Source: a virus. From it: a DNA stretch of 21,266 bases. Positions within the stretch are counted from its first letter, which is position 1, and every line of letters begins with the position of its first letter. The position numbers were made by a program, and so were the translations under genes. Positions 2,621-21,266 of this stretch are shown in pieces. The stretch lies in IMG/VR virus record IMGVR_UViG_3300025109_002457, positions 1 through 21,266 of that record; one strand, 5' to 3'. Under the pieces are notes generated by a model. It ran no database searches. It worked only from the letters and a program-made list of their open reading frames with translations, and was not told where the DNA came from.

Positions 2621-2649
2621 ATTATAACCGGATTATGGTTTATTGTCAA
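2621..2649 (-). promoter_or_regulatory. Consensus sigma-70-type promoter for the dUTPase unit
   Basis: On the minus strand TTGACA (2644-2649) is followed by 17 bases and TATAAT (2621-2626). Both hexamers are perfect consensus and the spacer ends in GGT. The -35 contains the TGA stop codon of dnaE. The predicted start near 2614 leaves a leader of about 14 bases that consists of little more than the Shine-Dalgarno AAGGAG. It should drive the genes from dUTPase to position 22. Confidence 0.85.
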
Positions 2650-5600
2650 CTTAATAATCTAAAATTATGACGAATTGATCTTGTTGAGTAGCCCCATGTT
2701 GGGTGATACTCTAATCTAGCCATATAGGGGCGATTGAGAAATAAAATGTCACGATTTGAATTTACACCCCAACATTTGATACTTGTTGTATGCCCCGTAT
2801 CATCAATTACTTCAACAACCCAATATTCTTTATTATGCTTTGTTTTTCTTGGAAGAATTTTACGAGGGATAAACCAAGTAAGCTGTAGCTCAGGATCGAA
2901 CTCTCCAATTGGTGGGATAAATTTATCATTTAGTTTCTGTCTAATCTTTTGATTCATTACTTCGCCCATGGGAAAAACGCCTGTTAAATCTACCGTATAC
3001 TGAATCAGTTCTTCTTCCTCAAAATCGCCTTCTGGGCGGTAAAGATCGATATTATTTTCAAGTTGCTTAGGTTTTCTTGGTCTATCGACTGCTACAGCAG
3101 ACCAAAAATGTTTTAACCCGCTGAATCTTGTGTCCACTAAACCATTCATTGCACCGGAACGAACCAGGACATCTACTGCTTTCTTGTTTAGCTTAGAATA
3201 GGTAATATTTTCATTGAATAAAAAATCCTCAATCGTCTCAAAAGGACGATTAGTTAAGATTTGATCGATTGCTGCGTCTCCAAACCCTTTAATAGAAGTT
3301 AGCGGCTGAACCAGCGTATGCCCATCTTCGCTAATTTCCCAAACGCGCCCGGAGGTGTTTATGTCGAGCTTTTTAATATTAAAACCAAAGCCTTTGGCAA
3401 TATTGATTGCTTTTTCTTTTCGGCTTTCGGGTTCTTTATCAAGAAATGCCGCCATCCACTCTGCCGGATAATGATAAGCCAGCCAAGCGCATTGGTATGA
3501 GAGCATGGAATAAGAAACAGCGTGTGATTTATTAAATCCATAGCCAGAGAAGTATTCAAATTTATCCCAGATGCTTTGTGCAATATCGCGACGAATGCCC
3601 TTTTCCACACAGCCTTCAATAAACTTCCCATGGATTTTCATTTTGGCTCCATAGCTTTTGCCAGTTCCCTTTTTGGTTAATAGTTTACGAAGTTTGTTGC
3701 CTTCGTCAAGAGATATATCTTTTCCAAGCTTGTGAGCAAGAATAGCAATCTGTTCTTGAAAAATTAAGAACCCATATGTTTCCTGGGTAACTTCTTCGAT
3801 CAAAGGATGAATATGTTTAATATATTGAGGATTTTCCTTTGCCTCAACATATTCATCGTCTACGTTTGCCGACAGAGGACCAGGGCGGAAAATAGAAGTA
3901 ATAGCAGAAATATCAATAATACTCGTAGGCTTTGCTCGCTTACAAAATGCTTGAGCGCCTTTCTCGGTGAATTGAAAAATTCCTGCCCATTTTCCGTTGT
4001 GAAAAATGTTTTTATATACGTCTTGATTGGTCAAGTCGATTACGTCTGGATTCAAATGTTTCTCATAATAGTCTTTGACATCGGCAAAAGTCGGTTCTGG
4101 GATGCCCTGGTGTCGCTTTAAAATATGTCGAATTGCGCCGTCAAACATTGCCAACGTGGAAAGACCAAGAATATCAAATTTGATAAACCCCATTGGTTCA
4201 AGATGCCGAACGTGCTGCCCTTCTGCCCAGGGCGTCTGTCTAACACCCTTGCTGTTAATTATGGGCATCCACTTGTCTAAATTTTCACCCACGACCACAC
4301 CGCCAGCATGACGCGAACAAGAGCGAACCTGTCCATAGAGAACATCAATATGATTGGCGATATGTGGATACTTGGATAGGAATGCCTGGAGAGTTGGTGA
4401 ATATTCTTTCACCTCTTCAAACGTTGGCGCATATACACCTGCCTTAATTCCGTGTGCCTTCTTTGCTGCCGGGGTTGCCTCCATAAGCATTTTTCCAGTA
4501 ACCTCGTTAACTTCCTTGAAAGGGATGCCATAGAACTTCGAAATATCTTTAATCAAAGAGCGAAGTTGAAGCGTGTTCCAATTTGAGATAGGAACAACAG
4601 TGGTATCGCCCCACTCTTCAATAAGCCGCTCTTTTAGTTCCATTGGCGCGGCAACATCATAATCGATATCAGGATAATCAGTTGCGTCTGATCGTAGAAA
4701 ACGCGAGAACAAAAGTCCATACTTAATTGGGTCAATCTGGGTGATTCCGAGAACATAAGCCACCAAGGATCCGGCAGCAGATCCGCGACCTGGACCCGTA
4801 AGCATGCACTGGTTTGCTCTATCGGCAATTGCCTTCATGGTCAGAAAATACTTGGGAAAACCGCGATCATCAATAACATGAAGTTCGTGACGCAGCCTAT
4901 CTATATATTCCTTATTCTTATGTAAATTTTTATTTCGAAGACCTTCTAACGACATATTAACTAGCGCCTGGGTTGCAGTGTGCCCAGCAGGAACAACAAA
5001 GTCAGGTAGGCGCACCGTATTATCAGGAAGGAAATCTTCGATCCGCTGATGTGCAATTGCGTGTGTATCTGTAATAGACTTCAAAACAAGATCGTCATCA
5101 TATTCAACGCCACATTCTTCTGAATACTTTTTATAGCTCGCCCACATTTGATCACCATTCTTGGGATAAAGCTCGTATCCAATTTCCTCAACAGAAATAG
5201 GAAGTTCGTTACTCATATAGTCGGGCTGGAAGGTTGACTTTCCAAGCCATCCTAGGCGTTTATAAAGCTCTCTATCTTTCCAAGCATCGTTATTCGGATA
5301 ATGACTATCCGCAGTTGAAACTAAACCGATGCCAAACTCGTTGTGCATCTGAATAATATATTTATTAATAATATGTTGTTCTGGCACATTATTCCACTGG
5401 AGTTCGCCGTACCACCGATCTCCGAAAATATTCACCATGCGCCGGGTGGTTTCTCGCATTGCCTCAAGAATTGCTTCTTCGCCCTTTTCTCGGTTTTCCC
5501 AATAGTTTCCAGAATATACGCCACCCAAGCAGGCAGAAGCAGCGATGACACCTTCGCTATATTTTGCGAGCATATCATAATCCATACGCGGATAGCGATA

Positions 5601-6083
5601 AAAATTCTCACTCTTATAACTCTCCGAAATTAGTTTAAAAATATTTTGAAGTCCTTGCTGGTTTTGGGCGAGGAGGATAAGATGGCGGCGGCGGCGCAGC
5701 ATGTCTTGGACTTTCTTGCTAGAGGTTTCATCCTCCACGGTTGCTGCGCTCAATTTGCTACTCAGAGTTTTTGCCCGCTTTTTGTCGTTAAGCGCCTTTT
5801 CGTATTCCTCTCGCCACTCAGAAAGTGATGGAAGAAAATACGCCTCAGTTCCAAAGATAGGTTTGAAATCCTTACCTTCTTCTCTCATTTTTTTGGCGTG
5901 TAACACTTGATGAGATAGCCCATTAGCATTGCCGTGATCGGTTAGTGCTAAAGCATCACATCCGTTCTTAAAAGCAAAATCCATATGCTCCCCCGGATAA
6001 CCTATGGCATCAAACAGGGAGCCTGCAACGCTGTGCGCGTGTAGCCCAACAAATGGGATTTTCGACTTTTTTCTATCGTCCAT
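2646..6083 (-). CDS. dnaE: DNA polymerase III alpha subunit (DnaE, family C)
   Basis: This 1145-residue replicative polymerase is close to the length of cellular DnaE (about 1160). The N-terminal PHP domain keeps a full set of candidate metal ligands: H15, H17, D25, H50, E80, H134, C185, D259 and H261. A charged insert lies at about 95-130. The palm contains GPGRGSAAGSLVAYVLG (430-446), PDIDYD with catalytic D472 and D474, and the later IKFDILGL that supplies the third aspartate. A helix-hairpin-helix region (SIKGFGDAAIDQIL) and a C-terminal OB-fold (WVVEVIDDTGHTTSIKCWG) follow. I see no obvious clamp-binding pentapeptide. GAGGAGG precedes the ATG and a near-consensus promoter lies just upstream. 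No clamp, clamp loader or primase is in the window. It coexists with a family A polymerase at 18903-20108. Confidence 0.97.
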   Translation of the reverse strand: MDDRKKSKIPFVGLHAHSVAGSLFDAIGYPGEHMDFAFKNGCDALALTDHGNANGLSHQVLHAKKMREEGKDFKPIFGTEAYFLPSLSEWREEYEKALNDKKRAKTLSSKLSAATVEDETSSKKVQDMLRRRRHLILLAQNQQGLQNIFKLISESYKSENFYRYPRMDYDMLAKYSEGVIAASACLGGVYSGNYWENREKGEEAILEAMRETTRRMVNIFGDRWYGELQWNNVPEQHIINKYIIQMHNEFGIGLVSTADSHYPNNDAWKDRELYKRLGWLGKSTFQPDYMSNELPISVEEIGYELYPKNGDQMWASYKKYSEECGVEYDDDLVLKSITDTHAIAHQRIEDFLPDNTVRLPDFVVPAGHTATQALVNMSLEGLRNKNLHKNKEYIDRLRHELHVIDDRGFPKYFLTMKAIADRANQCMLTGPGRGSAAGSLVAYVLGITQIDPIKYGLLFSRFLRSDATDYPDIDYDVAAPMELKERLIEEWGDTTVVPISNWNTLQLRSLIKDISKFYGIPFKEVNEVTGKMLMEATPAAKKAHGIKAGVYAPTFEEVKEYSPTLQAFLSKYPHIANHIDVLYGQVRSCSRHAGGVVVGENLDKWMPIINSKGVRQTPWAEGQHVRHLEPMGFIKFDILGLSTLAMFDGAIRHILKRHQGIPEPTFADVKDYYEKHLNPDVIDLTNQDVYKNIFHNGKWAGIFQFTEKGAQAFCKRAKPTSIIDISAITSIFRPGPLSANVDDEYVEAKENPQYIKHIHPLIEEVTQETYGFLIFQEQIAILAHKLGKDISLDEGNKLRKLLTKKGTGKSYGAKMKIHGKFIEGCVEKGIRRDIAQSIWDKFEYFSGYGFNKSHAVSYSMLSYQCAWLAYHYPAEWMAAFLDKEPESRKEKAINIAKGFGFNIKKLDINTSGRVWEISEDGHTLVQPLTSIKGFGDAAIDQILTNRPFETIEDFLFNENITYSKLNKKAVDVLVRSGAMNGLVDTRFSGLKHFWSAVAVDRPRKPKQLENNIDLYRPEGDFEEEELIQYTVDLTGVFPMGEVMNQKIRQKLNDKFIPPIGEFDPELQLTWFIPRKILPRKTKHNKEYWVVEVIDDTGHTTSIKCWGVNSNRDILFLNRPYMARLEYHPTWGYSTRSIRHNFRLLS

Positions 6084-8098: not shown

Positions 8099-8556
8099 AC
8101 AGGTTTGTTAGCTTCTGGCACGCGTCCTTTAGCAAGAGCACTGCTGCTTTGCACTTTGCCGCCGCCGACTTCCCATAACATTTCAATTCCAAGTTCTTCA
8201 CAAACTGCCATTTCTGGAGTGTTGTTGTTTGTCCTGTCGCCGCCATTAGCAAAATAATCTGGCTTGAATTTTCGCAGAGCCTTACACACTGTGTCGTCGG
8301 CATCGTCTGCCTGAATGACTATAGAAACGCCCCGCATACATGAGAGAATTTCTTGCCTTTCTGCAAAAGACATAAATACAAATCCCTTTTTTCTTTGTAA
8401 CCACTCGTCAGAATTGGCAACAACAATTAATTTTCCATATTTTGCCGCTTCTTGTATCATGCGACAATGACCTTTATGAACCGGGTCAAATCCTCCACTA
8501 ACCATAATAGTTTTGGCTTCTCGGTGTCTTCTATATTCATTGTAATGGTGTGCCAT
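8092..8556 (-). CDS. Cytidylyltransferase-like nucleotidyltransferase (HldE C-domain/TagD type)
   Basis: This 154-residue protein contains the HxGH-superfamily signature GGFDPVHKGH (21-30) with the nucleotide-binding histidines H27 and H30. NGGDR (104-108) follows, and VQSSSAL (135-141) takes the place of the ISTT phosphate-contact motif. In this family the enzyme transfers AMP or CMP from the NTP to a phosphorylated small molecule such as heptose-1-phosphate or glycerol-3-phosphate, releasing pyrophosphate. The NGGD pattern is nearer to the ADP-heptose synthase (HldE/RfaE) domain than to TagD. Substrate is not readable. It joins the GroES-like gene by TAATG. The three genes 6285-8556 probably act together on an activated sugar or similar group. 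Confidence 0.88.
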   Translation of the reverse strand: MAHHYNEYRRHREAKTIMVSGGFDPVHKGHCRMIQEAAKYGKLIVVANSDEWLQRKKGFVFMSFAERQEILSCMRGVSIVIQADDADDTVCKALRKFKPDYFANGGDRTNNNTPEMAVCEELGIEMLWEVGGGKVQSSSALAKGRVPEANKPVC

Positions 8557-8849
8557 TATTCTTTATTCTCCTTAAGTTTTGCAATGACATAATTGTCTAA
8601 TATTAAATAATGTTTGTCTCCTCCATATTCTATTTCTTCGATCATGCTCCGATCTACTAGGATCTGTTCTCCCTTGACTATAGACTCTAATCGACAGTCG
8701 GGTGCCCAATCAAATACGGTGGCAGCACAATATCTTCCCTCAATTTTAGTATAATCATCTGGCAAGAGGATTGTTGTTTGTTCTTTTATTTTATCTTTCT
8801 TAACATGCTCTGGCATGATTAATATATGTCTGTTAAATGGTTCTAGCAT
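8556..8849 (-). CDS. GroES-like co-chaperonin
   Basis: This 97-residue protein has the GroES length and pattern. It opens MLEPFNRHILIMPEHVKKD, followed by EQTTILLPDDYTKIEG where the mobile loop that docks on GroEL sits. GEQILVDRSMIEEIEYGG and YLILDNYVIAKL form the closing beta strands. I chose the ATG at 8849 because AAGGAG lies 5 bases upstream. A GTG at 8867 would start upstream of that Shine-Dalgarno and inside the RNR gene. Known phage co-chaperonins (T4 gp31, RB49 CocO) cap host GroEL to fold the capsid protein. No GroEL gene is visible, so the same use of the host chaperonin is inferred. Its position among nucleotide genes rather than head genes is notable. Confidence 0.87.
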   Translation of the reverse strand: MLEPFNRHILIMPEHVKKDKIKEQTTILLPDDYTKIEGRYCAATVFDWAPDCRLESIVKGEQILVDRSMIEEIEYGGDKHYLILDNYVIAKLKENKE

Positions 8850-8859
8850 TTTTTCTCCT

Positions 8860-11271
8860 TTATCCACATTTTGCGTATCCGCAGCTTTTGCAGGTTAAAC
8901 AGCCCTCAATATAAATAAGTCCATCGCCCACCCCACAAGAAGGGCACTCTTTATCAGATGCTTCTGTTCCGTCCTTAATGTAGTTTTTAAGGACTCTCGC
9001 AACACACTTGGCAAAGCTGAACATGTCACTATCTCGATCTTTTTGCATCTGTTCTACTGCGTATTGAATATTTGCACCGTGGCGAAGGGAGAGGCTAATC
9101 AATCGCGTAAAGGCGGAATTATTCGGGTTATCAAAAACTTTTACGATGTCTCTTACCCTTATTTCGTCTCCGTTTATGCCCACCATGAGATCATAAACAG
9201 AATTCATCGTTTTTCTCGGATGTTTGACTAAAAGCCCTTCTGTGTGCTTCTGTGGGATCTCAATTAAATTTGATAAACCTCCCATAACTTCGTATGGTTT
9301 GCCGTCTAGAAGTCCAACCAAGATTATCCACTTTTCCCCTTGGATGGTTGTATGGTAAATATCACAAGGTAGTTCTTTGGGACGCACAGTGGCAGTATTT
9401 TGTGGAAAAACGTTTTTTTCCTTTTCGGACACCAAAACACCAGAACGAGAGCCATCGACATAAACCGTAATCCCCTTTAAGCCCGATTTCCAGCCTAATT
9501 GATAGAGATTGCCAACGATTTCGGGGGATGTATCTTTGGGTAAATTAATCGTGGAGCTAATGGAGTGATCGATGTGCTTTTGAATTGCGGCTTGAATACG
9601 AACCCTAATTTCCCAATCAATTTGATCCGATTCGGTAAAAAAGTCAGGAACTTCATCAGTCTCCATCAGGTTAAGATATTGTCTAATATTGTGGTGGAAT
9701 ACACTATATTCACTCCACCTGTCTCCCAGGTCATCGACAAAATCTGCCTCTATGTGTTCCTCGTTGTGTGAAAGTTTACGACGGCGAGTATATGAATTTC
9801 TAAACACTGGCTCGATACCGGAACTGGTTTGTGACATAATCGAAACGGAGCCTGTTGGGGCGTTTGTGAGAATAGATATATTTCGCCTTCCGTGCTGAGC
9901 GATCAGCAACTGTAATTCTGGGGGCAATAATTTAATAAATTCATTGTCCTTTTCCTTTTCCCAGTTAAACACTGGAAAAGAGCCTCGTTCTTCGGATAGA
10001 CGAACGCTTTCTGTATAAGCGGCAATTTTCAAAGTCTCATAAATTTTGTCAATCATTGAGATTGCTTCTTTAGAGTCATAGGCTAAGTTAAGGCAAGCCA
10101 GGGCATCTGCCAAGCCGTGCGTGCCTAAACCAGTTCGCCTTCCATTAACGCATGCCGTTTTAAGGCGTTCCCATAGCGCTTTCTCATCCGACGTGTCGCA
10201 GCAAGAAATAATATTATCAAGCTTTTCTATTTCAAGCTCTACTAAATCATCAGATAGTCTCATTGCTTTGGCAACAGTGTTTGAAAATCTGGAAAAATTG
10301 AACTCCGTATTTTTCTGGAACTTTCGATCTACAAAACTTTTTAGATTTACGGAGATCAGACGACACGAATCATATGCTGAGAGGGGGATCTCTCCACAAG
10401 GATTGGTGCATATTGTCTTGAACCCATCGTCAGCATATGCCTGGGCAGGGAGATACTTTTCAATGTTTCCCCACATTAAAAGTCCTGGTTCTGCTGTCTG
10501 TGTTGCAGACTCAACAATGGTATCCCATAACTGTTTTGCATCGATGTGTTTACTTATAGTAGGTGCTTCGCTTCCGACTGGAAAGTGTAAGGTAAACTCT
10601 TCATTACTCTCCACTGCCTCCATGAAGTCGTCGCTTATTTTCACCGAAATGTTTGCGCCAGTAACTTTAGTTAAGTTCTGCTTCATGGTAACAAAGTTTT
10701 CAATATCAGGATGGCGCACATCCATTGTAATCATAAGTGCGCCACGACGACCATTTTGACCAATCATTCGGCAAACATAAGAATAAAAATCTGCAAACGA
10801 CCAAGCCCCTGTGGTGGTGCCTGCCGAATTATTAACTGGTGTTCCCTCGGGACGTAAATTGCTGATGTCTAGACCGACTCCGCAGCGACGTTTAAAGAGG
10901 TTGGCAAGATACTTCCCCGAATCAATGATTGAAGATATATTATCGTCGGGCGATTCTACAACTACACAATTTGAAAGAGAGACATTAACATAATCGTTAC
11001 CAATGCCCATCATTGGAGAGCCTTGGGGAACAATATATTTAAAGTCCTTTAGAAGTTCATAAATTTCCTGTTCAGGTAAGGAGTTCGTGCCTCCAAACTG
11101 TTTTTCTATGCGAGCGAATTCGGATGCCAAACGATGATGCATGTCATCGGGGGTATGTTCAATAATATTTCCATCATTATCCTTAAGGGCATATTTCGTC
11201 AGCCACACATTTGTCGCAAGCTGATCGCCATTAAAATATTCGATGGCTGTGTTTTCTACATCGCTTGTCAA
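8860..11271 (-). CDS. nrdJ: Adenosylcobalamin-dependent (class II) ribonucleotide reductase
   Basis: This 803-residue enzyme reduces ribonucleotides to deoxyribonucleotides using coenzyme B12. Visible signatures are SNCVVVESPDD with redox Cys102, and NPCGE with N290, the thiyl-radical Cys292 and E294. DSCRL follows with the partner Cys303. GWKSGLKGITVYVDGSRSG is characteristic of class II enzymes. The C-terminal cysteine cluster (CPSCG, GCLTCKSCG, KCG) serves re-reduction by thioredoxin or zinc binding. No N-terminal ATP cone is seen, and no class I small subunit or class III activase lies nearby. The start is TTG at 11271, one base after the helicase stop, with AAGGAAGG just upstream. The next in-frame Met is 44 codons in, past conserved-looking sequence. 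The host must supply B12. Confidence 0.97.
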   Translation of the reverse strand: MTSDVENTAIEYFNGDQLATNVWLTKYALKDNDGNIIEHTPDDMHHRLASEFARIEKQFGGTNSLPEQEIYELLKDFKYIVPQGSPMMGIGNDYVNVSLSNCVVVESPDDNISSIIDSGKYLANLFKRRCGVGLDISNLRPEGTPVNNSAGTTTGAWSFADFYSYVCRMIGQNGRRGALMITMDVRHPDIENFVTMKQNLTKVTGANISVKISDDFMEAVESNEEFTLHFPVGSEAPTISKHIDAKQLWDTIVESATQTAEPGLLMWGNIEKYLPAQAYADDGFKTICTNPCGEIPLSAYDSCRLISVNLKSFVDRKFQKNTEFNFSRFSNTVAKAMRLSDDLVELEIEKLDNIISCCDTSDEKALWERLKTACVNGRRTGLGTHGLADALACLNLAYDSKEAISMIDKIYETLKIAAYTESVRLSEERGSFPVFNWEKEKDNEFIKLLPPELQLLIAQHGRRNISILTNAPTGSVSIMSQTSSGIEPVFRNSYTRRRKLSHNEEHIEADFVDDLGDRWSEYSVFHHNIRQYLNLMETDEVPDFFTESDQIDWEIRVRIQAAIQKHIDHSISSTINLPKDTSPEIVGNLYQLGWKSGLKGITVYVDGSRSGVLVSEKEKNVFPQNTATVRPKELPCDIYHTTIQGEKWIILVGLLDGKPYEVMGGLSNLIEIPQKHTEGLLVKHPRKTMNSVYDLMVGINGDEIRVRDIVKVFDNPNNSAFTRLISLSLRHGANIQYAVEQMQKDRDSDMFSFAKCVARVLKNYIKDGTEASDKECPSCGVGDGLIYIEGCLTCKSCGYAKCG

Positions 11272-12694: not shown

Positions 12695-13531
12695 TTATTG
12701 TTTAAGTGAGAGCATTGAATCATATGCCTTGCGCTTTGCGCCCGACAGCCTTTCAAGATAATCAGTTCTTCTCAATACCTTAAAGGCAAGATTTTCAACT
12801 GAATATGCCCCTATTGTGTCCAATCCAGTTTTTCGCATCTTTCGAATTTTTTCTTTTAGCTTGTCAGCGTATTTTTCTGCTTCTTCATACTTGCCGTCAT
12901 CAATTAATTGTTCTACACGATCAACCTGATCCATCAGGGATGCTGCTTTCTTTCTAATGTTGTCTTTGTCAAAATCTTTTGATTCGAAGGTGGGCTTCTT
13001 TAACCACTCACCTTTAAGAACTGAATATAGTCCTTGTGCTTCGTGGGGGTCGTTAATATCTTGAACATAAATTTCAACTTCAAACCCCTTAATTCTGATA
13101 TCGTGAAGACGATTCCATAACGCTTTCATTGCATTAAAATATTCTCGGACAAGATCAACCTTATCGTCTATGTCTCTGAAATCTAGTAAAATGTGTAAAT
13201 CTACATCAGAGAAGCGGGAATAATTATATGCTGCCAAAGAGCCCGTAAACGTGACATCCTCATATGGGACATCACCTACTTCGAGGGAGTCATAAAAATC
13301 ATTTGCGATAATCAATAACTTCGCCTGAATCTCTGGATCTAAATTGTCATCTGGCTGGTTCCAGAAGTCTCGATCAAGTCTATCGTGCATTTCAAAACTG
13401 GAAAGATCAACAGATTCTGGATCAACATCTTCTAAAAGAAATGCTTTAAGGTTGGCGACGAGCATTTCGGGAGACGGTGTAATGTTTTCCGATTCTTTAA
13501 ATGTGTTTACCCATTGCTTAAATAATTGCAT
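12695..13531 (-). CDS. Nucleotidyltransferase-fold protein (Pol beta-like, phage type)
   Basis: This 278-residue protein has the minimal nucleotidyltransferase signature FTGSLAAYNYSRFSDVDLHI. It comprises the Gly97-Ser98 loop and the metal-binding pair Asp109 and Asp111. FEVEIYVQD (about 150-158) offers a third acidic residue. The C-terminal third is rich in Lys and Glu and predicted helical (KYADKLKEKIRKMRK). Proteins of this superfamily transfer NMP to nucleic acid, antibiotic or protein. Substrate cannot be told here. I start at the ATG at 13531, 14 bases after the exonuclease stop. An upstream TTG at 13564 would overlap the exonuclease, and neither has a clear Shine-Dalgarno. It is last in the deaminase-exonuclease unit, so a nucleic-acid substrate is plausible. 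Confidence 0.85.
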   Translation of the reverse strand: MQLFKQWVNTFKESENITPSPEMLVANLKAFLLEDVDPESVDLSSFEMHDRLDRDFWNQPDDNLDPEIQAKLLIIANDFYDSLEVGDVPYEDVTFTGSLAAYNYSRFSDVDLHILLDFRDIDDKVDLVREYFNAMKALWNRLHDIRIKGFEVEIYVQDINDPHEAQGLYSVLKGEWLKKPTFESKDFDKDNIRKKAASLMDQVDRVEQLIDDGKYEEAEKYADKLKEKIRKMRKTGLDTIGAYSVENLAFKVLRRTDYLERLSGAKRKAYDSMLSLKQ

Positions 13532-13544
13532 GTTATAAATAGTT

Positions 13545-14507
13545 TCACAACTTTGAATCAGCAACTATCTTGTTCATTGCTGCAAACAAATCAGTGAAGT
13601 TCACCACTCCAAACCCATCTTCAATCATCATCGCTTTTACATTAGTTTTGGCGAGTTCCGGCTCAAAATTCTCAAGCGCATAATCGATCTTTTTCTTACC
13701 CTGAACGCTGAGAGACGGCGTATAAAGTTGCATGAGACGATAGTTTTCGTTGATAAGATCCTGATGTTCGATAACACTGTCATACGCCTTGACTTTGCCC
13801 TTGTTCTCTTCCGCGTGTATGACAAGGCTATCAATGCCAAATGACATATTCTCACCCAAAAAAGGAAATCTTTTGCTTACCGTGGGGAGCCCGACACCGC
13901 CGACGCCTGGAAGGTTGTCTGACTTGTCGCCTGCAACTGCGCGTGCAAGAGCAAAATTCTTTGGATGAATTCCATATTGTTCTACTAATGCTTTTTGGTT
14001 TATCACTTCTTTCTGAATGGGTCGGAATACGACAGTCTCATTATCGCACAACTGAAAGAAGTCTTTATCTGATGAGACAATAACTTTTTGCCAGCCATTG
14101 TAAAGTGGGTGTTGGGCAACGACGCTAATAATATCATCTGCTTCGACGGCAGGTAACACTAACTGTACAATCGGAAGTTCGTTAAGATATTCTGCCAGTC
14201 TTGTCTGTTGCCAAATTTTATTTGCGATCTCTTCGTTCGCGGAAAGATTGCGGATATCTCGATTTAAACGAATGGGCTTTCTGCCTTCCTTATATCCTTT
14301 GTTCTTCGTTTTGCGTTTTTGACTTCCGCCCTCTCCGTCCCAGCAAATTACTATTTCATCTGGTTTGGTATCGCGCACAAGTTTTTGTAGAATTTTCAAA
14401 AACCCCTTCATGCCGCCGATGGGTTGCCCGTTTGTAGACAAACTAGGATCGACAATATATGCTCTAAAGTACATATTAAGAGCATCAATAATAAGTAATC
14501 GTTTCAT
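13545..14507 (-). CDS. 5'-3' exonuclease / RNase H (T4 Rnh / FEN family)
   Basis: This 320-residue nuclease removes RNA primers and flaps from lagging-strand fragments. The metal-binding acidic residues of the PIN-like FEN family are present: D8 (LIIDALNMYFRAY), D57 (ICWDG), E122/D124/D125 (VEADDII), D147/D149 (SSDKDF) and D194/D197 (GDKSDNLPGV). The last lie in the helix-three-turn-helix that grips the DNA backbone. KRKTKNKGYKEGRK (64-77) is the disordered helical-arch region. Length fits T4 RNase H (305). It overlaps the preceding small gene by ATGA. It may supply the 5' nuclease function that the short family A polymerase lacks. Confidence 0.94.
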   Translation of the reverse strand: MKRLLIIDALNMYFRAYIVDPSLSTNGQPIGGMKGFLKILQKLVRDTKPDEIVICWDGEGGSQKRKTKNKGYKEGRKPIRLNRDIRNLSANEEIANKIWQQTRLAEYLNELPIVQLVLPAVEADDIISVVAQHPLYNGWQKVIVSSDKDFFQLCDNETVVFRPIQKEVINQKALVEQYGIHPKNFALARAVAGDKSDNLPGVGGVGLPTVSKRFPFLGENMSFGIDSLVIHAEENKGKVKAYDSVIEHQDLINENYRLMQLYTPSLSVQGKKKIDYALENFEPELAKTNVKAMMIEDGFGVVNFTDLFAAMNKIVADSKL

Positions 14508-15528: not shown

Positions 15529-15740
15529 TTCTTCTTCCTTTTGTTATTTGTGGGCTTGACAAAATCTGGATGCCAATATTTAACTTGGAACTTTTCGTAT
15601 CCTTGCCCATACCTCTTTATTTTGACGATTAACTCGTCGTTCCATTCACTTAAAAGAGAAGTTTTTTTACTAGATGCATCTTCATACAGATCATATAAGC
15701 CTGCTCGTTTCCAAACTTTATTTTGTTTTTCTTCTGACAT
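15525..15740 (-). CDS. Small basic hypothetical protein
   Basis: This 71-residue Lys-rich protein ends KPTNNKRKKK. No family is recognised. The ATG at 15740 forms a TGATG overlap with the recA stop. A TTG one codon earlier has the better Shine-Dalgarno spacing (AGGAG, 8 bases), so the first residue is uncertain. The body (SLLSEWNDELIVKIKRYGQGYEKFQVKYW) alternates aromatic and basic residues, which would suit nucleic-acid binding, but this is inference. It lies between recA and the lipoprotein gene and shares their transcript. Confidence 0.65.
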   Translation of the reverse strand: MSEEKQNKVWKRAGLYDLYEDASSKKTSLLSEWNDELIVKIKRYGQGYEKFQVKYWHPDFVKPTNNKRKKK

Positions 15741-16858
15741 CAACTTTCTGTCTCCTCATAGAAATCGGAAGCATTGCCTTCTCGTTTATCAAACTTCATA
15801 ATAACCTCTTCATCGATTAGTTCAACAATTCTGTCTTTAAACTTTTCATCTTCGATCATTTCTTTCCATTTAGAGGGTTGAAACTTTTGTTCAGTGCCAT
15901 CGGCATACGTAAGAGTATACCATGCGCCAGCTTGCTTAAGCTGCTCTGAGCCCTTGATTGCGTCGAACCAAGATTCTTCATCTTGAATACCGATTTCATC
16001 ACCCCATAAAATCTTAAAATTACATTGGCGACCTTGTGTGCCAAAACGTGATTTTTCAAGTTTTACTTTTACTTCGGATCCGATTCTGAATCCCTTGTCA
16101 TCAGTTACAAAGCTTGCCTTTGCCTTGCGTCCGGTTAACCAGATTCGTAAAGAGTAGGCATAAATCATCGCCTTTCCACCAGGGGTTACATACGGAGTAG
16201 TCATAGCCTCGGAGGGCGAACGAGTAATATTCGTCTTCAACTGGTTAAGAACCAGGAAAGTGGATTGTGAATTAGCAATCGGAACTGTTAACTTGGACAT
16301 TCCCTTGGCGAGGATTCTTGCTTTCATTGCCATGGATGATTGAGGATTAAAGTCACCTTCAACATCCGACACAGCAGGGGTTAATGCCAGTGAGTCCCAG
16401 ATAAACAACATTCGATTATTATTGCTTGCCAAAAGATCCTCGATTGTCTCTAACACAAACTCAACAGATGCTGCTTGTACATAAAGTAGGCTATTCAAAT
16501 CGCAGCCCGCTCTTGCAAGAAATGCCGGATCAATTGCAGATTCAGAATCAAAATAGATTACGTCAATATCCATCTTTTGAGCATTGGCTGCAACCTGTGC
16601 TGCCATATAACTCTTTCCGGTTGATTCAAGCCCAGCAATTTCTACGATCTTGCCCATAGGAATGCCTGATCGCTTTCCTCGACATATAATAGAGTCAAGC
16701 CAGCGAGAGCCGGTCGGAATCCAGTCCTTAACTTGCGTTGGGTTCTCTTCTGTTAAATTATGGGCTACATTGATACCCGCTTTTTTGTTGATTAAAGCAC
16801 GCATATCCGATAAACTTAGTTTGCCTGCTTTGGTGCTTTTAGATCTCGCCATTCTCAT
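15740..16858 (-). CDS. recA: RecA/UvsX-type recombinase
   Basis: This 372-residue strand-exchange ATPase carries Walker A GLESTGKS (76-83), catalytic Glu107 in YFDSESAIDPAF, and Walker B LFIWDS (151-156). LVLNQLKTNI and the L2-region end TPGGKAMIYAYSLRIWL follow, all in RecA order. It is closer to cellular RecA than to T4 UvsX in Walker A and in the GGKA motif. It would form filaments on SSB-coated DNA for repair and recombination-dependent replication. GGAG lies 5 bases before the ATG. I find no separate promoter. Transcription probably comes through the hairpin that follows ssb, which would set recA below ssb in level. Confidence 0.95.
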   Translation of the reverse strand: MRMARSKSTKAGKLSLSDMRALINKKAGINVAHNLTEENPTQVKDWIPTGSRWLDSIICRGKRSGIPMGKIVEIAGLESTGKSYMAAQVAANAQKMDIDVIYFDSESAIDPAFLARAGCDLNSLLYVQAASVEFVLETIEDLLASNNNRMLFIWDSLALTPAVSDVEGDFNPQSSMAMKARILAKGMSKLTVPIANSQSTFLVLNQLKTNITRSPSEAMTTPYVTPGGKAMIYAYSLRIWLTGRKAKASFVTDDKGFRIGSEVKVKLEKSRFGTQGRQCNFKILWGDEIGIQDEESWFDAIKGSEQLKQAGAWYTLTYADGTEQKFQPSKWKEMIEDEKFKDRIVELIDEEVIMKFDKREGNASDFYEETES

Positions 16859-16923: not shown

Positions 16924-17682
16924 TTACGCTCCCATGAGTTCGTTGAAAGCAGCATCAACAGAAGAAACTGTGTCAGTTGAAGGAGGGGTGGTTGTAGAAT
17001 CAGCCTCCTCGCTGGTGCTTTCATCACCAATAAGATAGGCATCTAGGAGTGCCCCTACATCTTCTGGTGTTTTACGCTCAAAGAGCGTGTCGAAGTCGGG
17101 AATGCTTTCAAGCAATTCCGCGCAACGTTCGTCTCCACCCACTGCATCATCACATAACACAGAAGAGCGGCGACGGGGGGTAAGCTTCGTTTGAGGGAAG
17201 CTAGCGCCCTGTGGCTTACCATAATGAAGGACGAGATCTGTACCCGTTTCAGTATCGGTAATATCTCCATATTCAGGATTAAGAACAAGATTGAGCAACT
17301 GCTCATATACCATCTTGCCATATCCCCAAATACGGACACCCCTTTCTTCTTCACCCCGCACAAGAACGGGCGAGAAGAACCGCTGACGAGCCATAAGAGA
17401 CTTTGCCATCTTGATGCTTTCTTCGGTGCCCTCGTTAAAAAGTTTCCGAACAAAATCATCCAACGGATCACCTTCACCGAAGTTCTTCTTCGGGCTTAGA
17501 AAACCAGGATTGTTGCCCACATTATAGTGGAACCAGAAATCCTTAAAAGGATCTCCATCAGAGGTGGGGACAATGCGAATACATTGTTCGCCGTCTTGTG
17601 GACGCCAGAACGTGTCACGATTGCCTCCTCTGCTATCTAATGCAGCCTTGCGCTGCTTCATTTTATCAATATTAATTGCCAT
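16924..17682 (-). CDS. ssb: Single-stranded DNA-binding protein (T4 gp32-like)
   Basis: This 252-residue protein looks like the gp32-type SSB of tailed phages, not bacterial SSB. It has a short basic N-terminus (INIDKMKQRKAALD), as used for cooperative binding, then FWRPQDGEQCIRIVPTSDGDP, the opening of the OB-fold core. The core continues as FWFHYNVGNNPGFLSP and RFFSPVLVRGEEERGVRIWG. The last 30 residues are acidic and Ser/Thr-rich (IGDESTSEEADSTTTPPST), ending in a short hydrophobic helix, which is the usual docking tail for replication partners. The zinc residues of T4 gp32 are not evident. A strong promoter with an AT-rich upstream element and a leader of about 64 bases precede it. A terminator hairpin follows. 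High expression is implied. Confidence 0.88.
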   Translation of the reverse strand: MAINIDKMKQRKAALDSRGGNRDTFWRPQDGEQCIRIVPTSDGDPFKDFWFHYNVGNNPGFLSPKKNFGEGDPLDDFVRKLFNEGTEESIKMAKSLMARQRFFSPVLVRGEEERGVRIWGYGKMVYEQLLNLVLNPEYGDITDTETGTDLVLHYGKPQGASFPQTKLTPRRRSSVLCDDAVGGDERCAELLESIPDFDTLFERKTPEDVGALLDAYLIGDESTSEEADSTTTPPSTDTVSSVDAAFNELMGA

Positions 17683-17785: not shown

Positions 17786-17803
17786 TTAATTAAAATTAAT
17801 TAA
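17786..17803 (-). promoter_or_regulatory. AT-rich double palindrome upstream of the ssb promoter (UP-element-like)
   Basis: Two copies of the palindrome TTAATTAA (17786-17793 and 17796-17803) are spaced by two A residues, directly above the ssb -35 box, in the position where an UP element binds the RNA polymerase alpha subunit. The second copy covers the TAA stop of the membrane-protein gene. A repressor operator is another reading. Confidence 0.5.
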
Positions 17804-18059
17804 AAAAACTGTGATCGACCGGAATAGTAAGAATAAAGCCGCCTGCTTGTTCGCACTGGCAAGCGCCCTCATATTCAAATCCCGAGAAGTCCGCACCCAA
17901 GACGGAGCATGCAACTTCACAGTGACCAACTATTCTTCCAAATTCAAAACCTTCCTTATATGTAGCGGCAGCTAGCAAGCTTCCACCGGCTGCGAGGATA
18001 AGCATGACGAGCGCCCTTTTCCAATATTTTTGTATCAGATTTCGTAGCTTGCTCAACAT
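17796..18059 (-). CDS. Small membrane-anchored hypothetical protein
   Basis: This 87-residue protein has a basic head (MLSKLRNLIQKYWKR), one hydrophobic segment at about 16-34 (ALVMLILAAGGSLLAAATY) and a C-terminal domain. That domain has four cysteines in CEVACS and ACQCE, which would pair if exported. The positive-inside rule places the head in the cytoplasm and the cysteine domain in the periplasm. It has no lipobox. It could instead be read as an uncleaved signal peptide. It follows the tubulin-like gene by 22 bases and may have its own promoter at 18253-18281. The ribosome site is weak. I do not recognise the family. A membrane anchor, holin-like or antiholin role is speculative. Confidence 0.72.
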   Translation of the reverse strand: MLSKLRNLIQKYWKRALVMLILAAGGSLLAAATYKEGFEFGRIVGHCEVACSVLGADFSGFEYEGACQCEQAGGFILTIPVDHSFFN

Positions 18060-18081: not shown

Positions 18082-18915
18082 TTAATTGCTTGTGTGCGAA
18101 GTGTTTGCCACAATATATCCATAGTTCTTTTCGTAAGAAGTGGAATAAATTTGAAAACTTGTTTTAATATCTTTTTGATTTTGTTGAATATTATCAGTTA
18201 AACGTCGAAAGAGTGCGCCATCTTGTTCCAACTCTTTCTCGTTAATAGCATAATAATAACTCTTTTCAGATACATTGTCAAGAGAAAAAAACAATTTTTC
18301 TTCACCGTTCTGGAGATCTGTTAATCCAAAAGTGCTTATACTCCGACCTACCTTGCTCTCAAAAGGAGTTTTGTATATAGGTTCATTGTGTTTATAGACA
18401 TTAATCATATGGACAGTAGATACGAGTAGGTCATTGATATGATCAAAATATGTCATAATTGGAACATCACCTAAAATCTTTTCTATTTCTGTGTTGTCAA
18501 CAATGTAAAGCCGCTTAAAAAGACCAGATCTGGTATATTCCTGTAAGACGTTTCTAACTAATTGTTCTTGTAATAAGTTAGTTTCTGCCAAAAATTGTAA
18601 TTCTGGCTTTATGTATAAAATATTAATATTCTTTGAAGACAAGTGTTTAAGTATCTGTAGTGCTGCGCCTGAAACGAATCCCGAGCCACAAACAATAAAA
18701 AGAATATCGTTAGTGGTGTTGTTAAAAAACGTTTTGAGAGAAGGGGCTTGATTCTCGTATTCTTCGGGGTGAGTATATCGTTTTAATAGATAGCTTCCTT
18801 CGTCTTCGTGATCGACATCTTCGCTATCAATCTTAAAGATTTTATACTGGGGATGTTGAGCAAATTTATCTGCTATAGCGCAGCCTGCTCTTCCAAGACC
18901 GATTATTGTGTCCAT
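18082..18915 (-). CDS. Divergent tubulin/FtsZ-like GTPase-fold protein
   Basis: This 277-residue protein follows the order of the tubulin/FtsZ nucleotide-binding domain. IIGLGRAGCAIADKF (4-18) matches the first strand and glycine loop (FtsZ GVGGAGGNAV). DILFIVCGSGFVSGAALQI (70-88) aligns with the GTP-binding GGGTGTG signature, but reads CGSGFVSG. NINILYIKPE (97-105) matches the next strand. RLYIVDNTEIEKIL and TYFDHINDLLVSTVHMINV match the strand and the H7 helix that carries the sugar-contact region. The catalytic T7 loop (NxDxxD) is not recognisable. Thus nucleotide binding is plausible but hydrolysis-driven polymerisation is doubtful. It is shorter than PhuZ (about 315) and overlaps polA by 13 bases. 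The fold assignment is my inference from pattern; a different Rossmann-like fold is the main alternative. Confidence 0.65.
   Translation of the reverse strand: MDTIIGLGRAGCAIADKFAQHPQYKIFKIDSEDVDHEDEGSYLLKRYTHPEEYENQAPSLKTFFNNTTNDILFIVCGSGFVSGAALQILKHLSSKNINILYIKPELQFLAETNLLQEQLVRNVLQEYTRSGLFKRLYIVDNTEIEKILGDVPIMTYFDHINDLLVSTVHMINVYKHNEPIYKTPFESKVGRSISTFGLTDLQNGEEKLFFSLDNVSEKSYYYAINEKELEQDGALFRRLTDNIQQNQKDIKTSFQIYSTSYEKNYGYIVANTSHTSN
18253..18281 (-). promoter_or_regulatory. Internal sigma-70-type promoter candidate before the membrane-protein gene
   Basis: TTGACA (18276-18281), 17 bases ending in AGT, then TATTAT (18253-18258) on the minus strand, within the tubulin-like coding region. It would start near 18246 and transcribe the 87-residue membrane protein with a leader of about 187 bases. 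The weaker -10 makes it less certain than the others. Confidence 0.5.
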
Positions 18916-20108
18916 TCTATCCTTCTCATCGCGCCATATGATTTTCCTGCACCCACATTGACCCTAAATCTACCAAAAGGAGTTTGAGAGAAAATGTTAA
19001 TCAAGTCTTCAACCACTGTGCGCTCGCTATCGTCACAATCTATAATAATACTATCATGAAGTGTGAAAGAAATAAAGGACTTTTTCTCCTTTAGTTTGTC
19101 TGCAATCTTAAACGCCCTAGACAGTACCAAATCGCTTGTGGTGCTCTGTATTAAATAGTTTAATGCATGGTGTTTGTCCGCTTCAATTTTTCTATTATAA
19201 GGTGTCGTTACTTGTTGTCCGTTAAAATATTTTTGCAATATACCATCTCGATCATAATGCCGATTTGATAAATAATCTTTAGCCTTTGGGTTATATAGCC
19301 AAGCAAAAATTCGTTTTTTTGCCTCTTCGCGTGTTCCCATACCGCGATAGATATTATCAATATTCCACTGATGGATATCGTCTTGTGGTTGTTCTTTCTC
19401 GCTTAGTCCAAGAAGAACACGAAGTTCTGCTGCATTGTAGTCTAATTCAACAAAATAATCATTCACGGGTTTTAATATATTTCTATAATCGGCATTTAAA
19501 GTTAATATTGGGAAGCTTCGTTTATACGTTGTCATCCTTCCAGTCTTCGTACCATAAATATTATATGAAATATATGGTTTAATATGCTTACTCTTCTTTA
19601 GAAAGTTTCGAGTCTTCAGTTGGTGGCTCTCCCTGGCAATTTCTGCATAGTTAATATTCAGTTTTTGCTGCCGAATGTTATATGTAAGTTCTGATAGGTT
19701 TCTCATGAAAGCATAGTTCCCTGGCATGTCGTATTTTTTGATAACATGCTCAGTAATTTTGTTCTTAACCTCACAATATTCAAGCAGAAATCGTTGGGGA
19801 ACGAGATCATAAAAGCAGTGCCTATCGAGAGAGATTTTTGCCGTTGAAAATGACTTGTAAAACGCTCTTAGGCGGGCGTTAATAGCCTCCCAACGATGTC
19901 TTAGAAAATCAGGGCAGACCTCATTCAATGAATTACCTCCAACGAATAGAGAGGCAATGAGGGCACGATTGTGGGCTAAAATAGGGCTATAATTCCAAGT
20001 TGCACTTACAGCATTGAAGTTAAATTCATCACAATCGTAAATAAGTTTGCCGTCGTGATATATCCCAATACAATGTTTTTTATCGTCTAGTGTTTGAATA
20101 AACAACAT
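18903..20108 (-). CDS. polA: Family A DNA polymerase, short, no exonuclease domain
   Basis: This 401-residue protein contains the Pol I palm and fingers but little else. GTKTGRMTT (186-194) precedes motif A, VELDYNAAELRVLLGLS (220-236), with metal-binding D223. Motif B is R260-EEAK264-KRIF268-AWLY272, where Phe268 lines up with E. coli Phe762. NYLIQSTTSDL (317-327) carries the Gln that contacts the template strand. Motif C is LHDSIIID, with D352 kept but Ser353 replacing the usual Glu. The N-terminal 180 residues have no 3'-5' exonuclease DED motifs. Length is well below T7 or E. coli Pol I. Catalysis is plausible, with repair or lagging-strand gap filling as the likely job next to DnaE. It follows the partial gene by 14 bases. 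Confidence 0.9.
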   Translation of the reverse strand: MLFIQTLDDKKHCIGIYHDGKLIYDCDEFNFNAVSATWNYSPILAHNRALIASLFVGGNSLNEVCPDFLRHRWEAINARLRAFYKSFSTAKISLDRHCFYDLVPQRFLLEYCEVKNKITEHVIKKYDMPGNYAFMRNLSELTYNIRQQKLNINYAEIARESHQLKTRNFLKKSKHIKPYISYNIYGTKTGRMTTYKRSFPILTLNADYRNILKPVNDYFVELDYNAAELRVLLGLSEKEQPQDDIHQWNIDNIYRGMGTREEAKKRIFAWLYNPKAKDYLSNRHYDRDGILQKYFNGQQVTTPYNRKIEADKHHALNYLIQSTTSDLVLSRAFKIADKLKEKKSFISFTLHDSIIIDCDDSERTVVEDLINIFSQTPFGRFRVNVGAGKSYGAMRRIEWTQ

Positions 20109-20122
20109 TCACCTATTAATAG

Positions 20123-21266
20123 TTATTTTTGCAAAGATAAAAGTTCGATTGGGTATCTATGGAAATTTATCTTATCTTTAATATAACCTTTTGCGGCGTC
20201 GATGTCAATGTTTTTATATAAATCTTTTGCATTTTTTATTGTCTTGCGGACATCGACATCTTTCATAGGGCTTGATAATTCATAGTTTAGCATTTCAATA
20301 TATAAAGGGATCCAATAGATATCAGTATAGGTGGTACTCAAATCTTCTACAGCTATCTGTCGTCTTTCTTGCAATTGCGTTTTTGTAAGGCGACATTTGG
20401 TGATATTTGGATTATTTCCGTTACCTCCTCGATTAAGTGATTGGGCTCTTGGAACATTGGGTGTCCCTCTCTGTCCCGGCGTCCTCTTTATCGAGTTAAC
20501 CGATGGCATTCCATTGTTCTTGTAATCATTGGTAGAATTAAAAATATATTGATATGTGGCACCAGTGCCCTGATTTGTTATAATTGTTTTTGTAGGATGA
20601 AGCACAACATAGTTGTTATATATTTGAATAAGATACGTTCTTATAATATCATAGTCAAACTCACAGGCTTTATAGAAATAAGTTTCAAAAACGTCATCAA
20701 TTGATATTAATCCATAGTTTGCCATATATGCCTGCATTTGTGGAGAACCGAGATCTGCAATAATCCTATTTGGATTTTCTTTATTTGCCATAAATCCAAA
20801 TTTTTTAAGGGCATGCATATAAAATTCAAAATTAGGATTGTCAAAAAAAGTAAAACTATTCATAGAATCAGAATCAGCCTGATCTGCTTGAATATTTGGA
20901 ACAATATCTATTGCTAGTCCCGATATGTGTGTTGAACATTTCTGTGATAAGATAAAATAAGATCTGCTTAGCCCAACGTGCTTACCATTTGTTTTATGAA
21001 AATGTTTTGTGGATTTAATGAACTCATCAAAATTCATGGGACGGCTGTGCTCCATTCCTCGGGATGCCATTGGCTGTTCCAAATATACATCGACCATATT
21101 TGTGAACAAACTTTTAATATGAGGACCATATAAGCTGTGCATACTTTTCCACCCACTAACTGGCTTAATTTTATCTAGGCTGTTCTCGCCAGAATCCTTG
21201 AGTAAGTTCATTTTATATGCTTTATTAAAATAATCTTGAAGATCGCCAAAAGCATCTGCTACAAAA
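20123..21266 (-). CDS. Partial protein with VanY/M15-like zinc motif, incomplete at window edge
   Basis: The reading frame stays open to the right edge: 380 residues are visible, and the first 18 before the Met at 21211 (FVADAFGDLQDYFNKAYK) read as ordinary protein. The true start is therefore outside the window. STHISGLAID (20906-20935) matches the SxHxxGxAxD zinc signature of M15 D,D-peptidases and phage L-alanyl-D-glutamate endolysins. FEFYMHALKKFGFM follows as the usual helix. The third ligand, normally in a WH near PNRIIADLGSP, is missing, so peptidase activity is doubtful. A low-complexity linker (RTPGQRGTPNVPRAQ, NRGGNGNNPN) separates a C-terminal helical part. Function unknown; a virion or baseplate protein with a decayed peptidase fold is one reading. 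Confidence 0.78.
   Translation of the reverse strand, partial: FVADAFGDLQDYFNKAYKMNLLKDSGENSLDKIKPVSGWKSMHSLYGPHIKSLFTNMVDVYLEQPMASRGMEHSRPMNFDEFIKSTKHFHKTNGKHVGLSRSYFILSQKCSTHISGLAIDIVPNIQADQADSDSMNSFTFFDNPNFEFYMHALKKFGFMANKENPNRIIADLGSPQMQAYMANYGLISIDDVFETYFYKACEFDYDIIRTYLIQIYNNYVVLHPTKTIITNQGTGATYQYIFNSTNDYKNNGMPSVNSIKRTPGQRGTPNVPRAQSLNRGGNGNNPNITKCRLTKTQLQERRQIAVEDLSTTYTDIYWIPLYIEMLNYELSSPMKDVDVRKTIKNAKDLYKNIDIDAAKGYIKDKINFHRYPIELLSLQK
20180..20208 (-). promoter_or_regulatory. Sigma-70-type promoter for the polA unit
   Basis: TTGACA (20203-20208), 17 bases ending in GGT, then TATATT (20180-20185) on the minus strand, within the last codons of the partial gene. Start is predicted near 20173, giving polA a leader of about 65 bases. 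It would transcribe polA, the tubulin-like gene and the membrane-protein gene. Confidence 0.75.

Follow-up and report, generated by a model that had tools for sequence, protein, structure and literature searches.

Does the short reading frame that runs into the end of a phage DNA polymerase gene encode a tubulin, and if so, what would a tubulin be doing among replication genes? The frame occupies positions 18082–18915 on the minus strand, marked (−) below, of the window, a 21,266-nucleotide stretch of the IMG/VR record IMGVR_UViG_3300025109_002457. ORF analysis, structural modelling and homologues together describe its 277-aa product as a tubulin-fold protein lacking the T7 loop. The ATG start codon sits within the last codons of polA, giving an overlap of 13 nt (18903–18915), and a likely ribosome-binding site, AGAAGG (18921–18926 (−)), is found in the sequence 5 nt upstream of this ATG, likewise within polA. 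Comparison to a 94% identical homologue yields a dN of 0.025 and a dS of 0.164 (dN/dS ~0.15), and the gene is under purifying selection. Given this ratio and the existence of hundreds of homologues, the ORF cannot be attributed to chance, and the 277-residue frame is confirmed as real.

Searches by sequence leave the protein nameless. Pfam, PHROGs and NCBIfam returned noise for the window protein and nothing significant, no tubulin was found for it in the PDB by either phmmer or profile search, and Rfam has no match within the window. When 57 family members were scanned singly, the Pfam Tubulin model (PF00091) was touched by nine (best E 0.0055, short of the gathering score), while five contigs gave no match to it. 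The TrkA_N model was touched by eight of the 57 (best E 0.0007). As the two were touched about equally often, sequence alone could not decide the fold, and an unrelated Rossmann-fold protein, for example a TrkA_N-like one whose tubulin likeness is a glycine-loop coincidence, had to be considered.

Structure prediction gives a clearer answer. An AlphaFold2 model of the window protein, generated from a 57-sequence alignment, has a pLDDT of 92.0 and a pTM of 0.90. A Foldseek search of this model against the PDB placed Staphylococcus aureus FtsZ at the top (E 1.8e-13, probability 1.00), closely followed by TubZ; the best 50 matches are all FtsZ or TubZ. Using VIA-align, the model matches CetZ (3zid) with a Z score of 25.1 over 255 residues at 2.9 Å, CetZ2 with Z 24.5, TubZ with Z 23.7 over 273 residues, Aquifex aeolicus FtsZ with Z 23.0, and tubulins with Z ~21.8; these matches to tubulin-fold chains span residues 1–277, with about 260 residues aligned. 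Among viral models, a phage 'FtsZ' is the best match (TM 0.83), followed by other phage tubulins and PhuZ. A divergent member that is 36% identical to the window protein and lacks the nucleotide pocket (L012) was also modelled, with a pLDDT of 94.5 and Z 24.8 to CetZ; the two models are not fully independent, as their alignments have most rows in common. Both display the GTPase-type domain, the H7 core helix and the C-terminal domain, and both align end to end with tubulin-fold chains, C-terminal domain included (Z 21–25, 255–274 residues). The best 50 PDB matches in each search consist of tubulin, FtsZ, TubZ or CetZ chains only. Hence, the notion of an unrelated Rossmann protein is refuted unless both models are wrong, and we regard it as extremely improbable.

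Profile comparison by hhalign points the same way. The family profile aligns to PhuZ over residues 3–102 (E 6.5e-5, probability 64) and to FtsZ with T4, T6 and H7 in register (E 0.008, probability 5), compared to E 0.16 and probability 0.4 for a PolA profile used as negative control. Based on the two models, their structural matches and the hhalign scores relative to this control, membership of the tubulin/FtsZ superfamily by fold is well supported by prediction. A preliminary description of this DNA had proposed just such a fold, and neither outcome that it had named as refuting, a model without the tubulin fold or a match to another Rossmann family, was obtained.

The order of motifs from which the fold had originally been guessed is present in the sequence as described: the N-terminal glycine loop IIGLGRAGC at residues 4–12, CGSGFVSG at 76–83, KPE at 103–105 and VDN at 139–141. 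Of these, the named loops coincide with conserved columns of the family. The T1 glycine loop, delimited by conservation to residues 5–15 (IGLGRAGCAIA, 18871–18903 (−); GLGxAGCxIA in the family), retains G6, G8 and G11 in at least 176 of 177 members. T6 (VDN, residues 139–141, 18493–18501 (−)) is placed by the hhalign register, with N141 present in 166/177. Helix H7, assigned by DSSP of the model to residues 153–175 (18391–18459 (−)), carries N161, conserved in 167/177. N141 aligns with the guanine-contact residues N165 of FtsZ and N206 of tubulin, and N161 with the guanine contact made by N228 of tubulin and the H7 aspartate (D187 region) of FtsZ.

The phosphate-holding T4 loop, by contrast with the signature GGGTG[ST]G that it replaces, is altered throughout. 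In the window protein it reads CGSGFVSGA (residues 76–84, 18664–18690 (−)), which hhalign puts on FtsZ GGGTGTGAA, and its commonest form in the family is GxGxxSG. Even the permissive pattern G[GA][ST]G[STAV] is matched by only 12 of the 177 members, compared to 15/15 PhuZ and FtsZ controls. The preliminary description had held that the known phage and plasmid tubulins keep both GGGTGSG and T7. For PhuZ this is correct as regards T7, with DxxD in 9/9 sequences, but not for a strict GGGTGSG, since GGGSGS, GGASGS, AGGTGS and AGASGS all occur among the nine.

The most pronounced departure lies beyond H7. A segment comprising residues 176–191 (18343–18390 (−)), coil in the model and devoid of a conserved acidic pair, stands in place of T7 and helix H8, and the distance from H7 to the next strand (192–199) is 16 residues in 175/177 members. 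The best acidic position within it is conserved in 120/177, i.e. none exceeds 68%. Apart from one chance match among 57 members, no NxDxxD-like T7 pattern was found, while the T7 aspartates are kept in all nine PhuZ (DxxD) and all six FtsZ (NxDFxD) controls. Helices H8 and H9 are missing from the window model, and in most members the protein ends ~5–16 residues past the last strand, S10, leaving no long C-terminal tail. The absence of T7, as originally claimed, is thus borne out, and as far as sequence can tell canonical catalysis has probably been lost. Because T7, the H8 base and the C-terminal tail, i.e. the polymerisation parts of PhuZ, TubZ, FtsZ and tubulin, are all missing, we infer that a canonical GTPase filament is unlikely.

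A further signature marks the end of H5 at residues 125–131 (QEYTRSG, 18523–18543 (−)), recognised by its conservation as QEYARSG in the family. Q125 and R129, together with Y261, are unchanged in 177/177 members, including those that have lost the nucleotide pocket. This invariance even in the absence of the pocket suggests that another feature is conserved besides, perhaps a site for binding a partner. An assignment of Q125 and R129 to the FtsZ T5 ribose/phosphate contacts was considered and dropped, as counting back from N141 places both residues at the distal end of H5.

The two pocket asparagines are mostly lost together. N141 and N161 are both kept in 166/177 members and both lost in 10, with one further member lacking N141 only, so that 10 of 11 losses are joint; in 9 of the 10 double-loss members T4 G79 is replaced by glutamate. 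On a tree built without the pocket columns, the loss maps to three changes on supported branches, and with so few changes the coupling, striking when counted by row, is not significant once kinship is taken into account. Pairs of pocketless members have a dN/dS of ~0.06, indicating purifying selection, and their gene order is the same as in the rest of the family. The retention of the locus at such a ratio implies the protein can be useful without base contacts. Furthermore, as T4 is altered in all branches, nucleotide binding could be weak or absent in the whole family.

The gene neighbourhood is fixed, in the order family-A DNA polymerase, tubulin, gp32-like single-strand DNA-binding protein (SSB) and UvsX. 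In the window, the polymerase (401 aa, 18903–20108 (−)) is identified by PF00476 (E 5.5e-12), phrog_17 and synteny. The T4 gp32-like SSB (16924–17682 (−)) matches PF08804 (E 2.7e-10) and phrog_1192, and the UvsX-like recombinase (15740–16858 (−)) matches phrog_97 (E 7e-57). Between the tubulin and ssb genes, ORF and locus comparison reveal a small 87-aa protein containing a single hydrophobic stretch (17796–18059 (−)), present in close relatives only. Upstream of polA lies a conserved protein without Pfam or PHROG match, 362 aa in length here (20123–21211 (−)) and ~460 aa in full loci. Starting from the tubulin gene, polA was found upstream in 92/93 distinct loci and gp32-like ssb downstream in 97/97. 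A stronger test is provided by the reverse count, in which polA loci found without reference to tubulin carry the tubulin gene downstream in 85 of the 85 with room for it. Nine contigs of 102–204 kb each contain exactly one tubulin copy. The link to polA first noted from the overlap therefore extends to a near-invariant gene pair, although a position next to polA and ssb can reflect expression timing alone.

Other genes of the window deserve mention. At only 401 aa, the family-A polymerase has little room for the full Pol I exonuclease domains, and a separate exonuclease-like protein is found at 13545–14507. A full-length DnaE (Pol III alpha, ~1145 aa) is encoded at 2646–6083 (−), and DnaE and PolA co-occur in 8/9 large Gp23-type contigs (G002, G003 and G006–G011). 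An IMP dehydrogenase (GuaB, guanine-nucleotide synthesis; 353–1390 (−)) is present in 6 of the 12 contigs tested. By eye, the ORF at 8556–8867 (−) resembles a GroES-type co-chaperonin, and that at 12695–13564 (−), which matches phrog_36119 (E 1e-40), contains a nucleotidyltransferase-like DVDLHILLD motif.

The T4-type capsid protein Gp23 is encoded by 9/9 of the large contigs (102–204 kb) and by the contig bearing a 100% identical tubulin gene (L001, the same as G012), which identifies the carriers as Gp23-type (T4-like) phages. They are probably Far-T4-like, a placement made by Gp23 and the literature rather than by a tree of our own. None of the four profiles (tubulin, PolA, SSB and UvsX) finds a match in Rhodothermus phage RM378, the cultured Far-T4 reference, and the 2015 paper on Far-T4 phages mentions neither tubulin nor FtsZ (PMC4360716). 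Within IMG/VR viral contigs, a first scan yielded 12 loci with a homologue, an alignment-based scan 136 candidates of which 80 were kept, and a deeper scan at least 550 confirmed stretches related to the window gene. Isolated phages gave no tblastn match across 50,697 records with two different family members as query. A scan of GTDB, with one genome per prokaryote species, likewise gave no match, and being pattern-based it can overlook relatives. Among the open-licence PMC papers searched, no earlier description of this family was found, and the proposal of a new tubulin branch is supported.

Known tubulin-fold systems show both likenesses to this branch and differences from it. PhuZ and PhiKZ TubZ are the tubulins of nucleus-forming jumbo phages, and the PhuZ tail is acidic. 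They share with the window protein a phage origin, the fold and a short length (PhuZ is ~315 aa), as well as, for PhuZ, the weak N-terminal profile likeness. In contrast, PhuZ has both T7 and a C-terminal tail, neither of which is seen in the 277-aa window protein, and in phage 201phi2-1 it lies among hypothetical genes rather than between polA and gp32. Archaeal CetZ, a cellular GTPase for which GTP-bound protofilaments are known (4b45), achieves the highest structural score, in a comparison made by structure alone at 12–13% identity; T7 and H8 are absent from the window protein. TubZ is ~400 aa and works with TubR in plasmid segregation; it has the fold and an extrachromosomal DNA context in common with the window protein but possesses T7 and a long tail. 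FtsZ shares the fold, with T4, T6 and H7 aligned in register, while the window family is without its T7, H8, H9 and C-terminal tail. The closest viral model is A0A6J5RW92, annotated 'FtsZ cell division GTPase' of an uncultured Caudovirales phage (TM 0.83 by query length, E 2e-13), which at 452 aa is 15% identical to the window protein.

Diverged superfamily branches have been described before, as FtsZl1 and FtsZl2 (Makarova and Koonin 2010, PMC2875224). In FtsZl1 the T6–H7 elements are not identifiable and filament formation has been doubted (PMC2875224). Both branches keep GGGTG[ST]G, and FtsZl1 carries a C-terminal coiled coil and helical domain and FtsZl2 a ~300-aa region (PMC2875224). The window family, by contrast, has kept T6 and H7, has lost T7 and the canonical T4, and has no extra domain.

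Regarding function, we give an even chance to an accessory protein of the replication machinery, either nucleotide-sensing or purely structural, as opposed to a PhuZ/TubZ-like motor filament. Such a protein would be produced together with the SSB and DNA polymerase of the phage and work alongside them. The usual pocket may be filled by GTP or GDP in most members, which would fix the shape of the T1–T6 face, but as the protein cannot give a neighbouring subunit a T7 loop, no canonical head-to-tail GTPase filament would be expected. A monomer or small oligomer might instead dock on PolA, the gp32-like SSB or UvsX, and the invariant QEYARSG region is a candidate for making that contact. A tuning or sensing role would fall to nucleotide binding, which would be non-essential given that some branches without the pocket still keep the gene.

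A dynamic GTPase filament that moves or centres phage DNA, as in PhuZ or TubZ, would fit the fold and the weak PhuZ likeness over residues 3–102, but with the T7 catalytic loop, H8 and the tail missing family-wide and T4 altered, we consider it very unlikely. Alternatively, the protein might build a static, non-canonical polymer in which replicating phage DNA is held or clustered, the scaffold suggested in the preliminary description. PhuZ carrying T7 mutations still makes filaments, albeit non-dynamic ones (PMC7950403), and both the fold and the replication neighbourhood would suit such a role. In PhiKZ TubZ, tubulin and FtsZ, however, T7, the H8 base and S9 take up equivalent positions where protofilament subunits meet, and H8 and the C-terminal tail also build the filament contact (PMC3678025). 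Both are gone here along with T7, which leaves the known longitudinal contact unable to form as usual. With only ~5–16 residues after S10 in most members, no tail is available either, and we judge the static polymer unlikely.

The one-sided pattern of loss raises another option, that the protein might act as a decoy to host FtsZ or cap its filaments. The nucleotide-side face is kept (T1, T6, H7) while the T7 side is absent, which is the geometry expected if the phage protein were to meet the free T7 face of an FtsZ filament and end it, and several phages encode FtsZ inhibitors (for example PMC3961180 and PMC10714956). Yet so tight an association with polA and gp32-like ssb at nearly every locus is unexpected for a host-takeover gene, the nucleotide pocket is lost in some branches, and there is no special sequence likeness to FtsZ, as the hhalign score indicates. 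Host-takeover genes usually move about. Capping, which would halt division and thereby provide the phage with a larger cell, is accordingly rated a rather poor prospect. An accessory role in replication remains our preferred reading. In its strongest form, a catalytically dead tubulin would have been recruited into a DNA replication machine as an obligate subunit or regulator, working beside the polymerase and not as a skeleton filament, across abundant uncultured marine Gp23-type phages; this is put forward tentatively, at somewhat less than even likelihood.

To our knowledge, the known prokaryotic tubulins (FtsZ, TubZ, PhuZ, CetZ and BtubAB) are GTPases that form filaments. A phage family with hundreds of members or more that keeps the fold without the catalytic and filament parts, and does so beside a polymerase, would widen the roles of the tubulin fold, and it allows the involvement of a cytoskeletal fold in DNA replication to be tested. 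A gene that is universal in the loci examined, and that sequence searches had left nameless, gains a name. These observations suggest tubulin has been re-used as part of virus DNA replication in a large group of uncultured marine phages.
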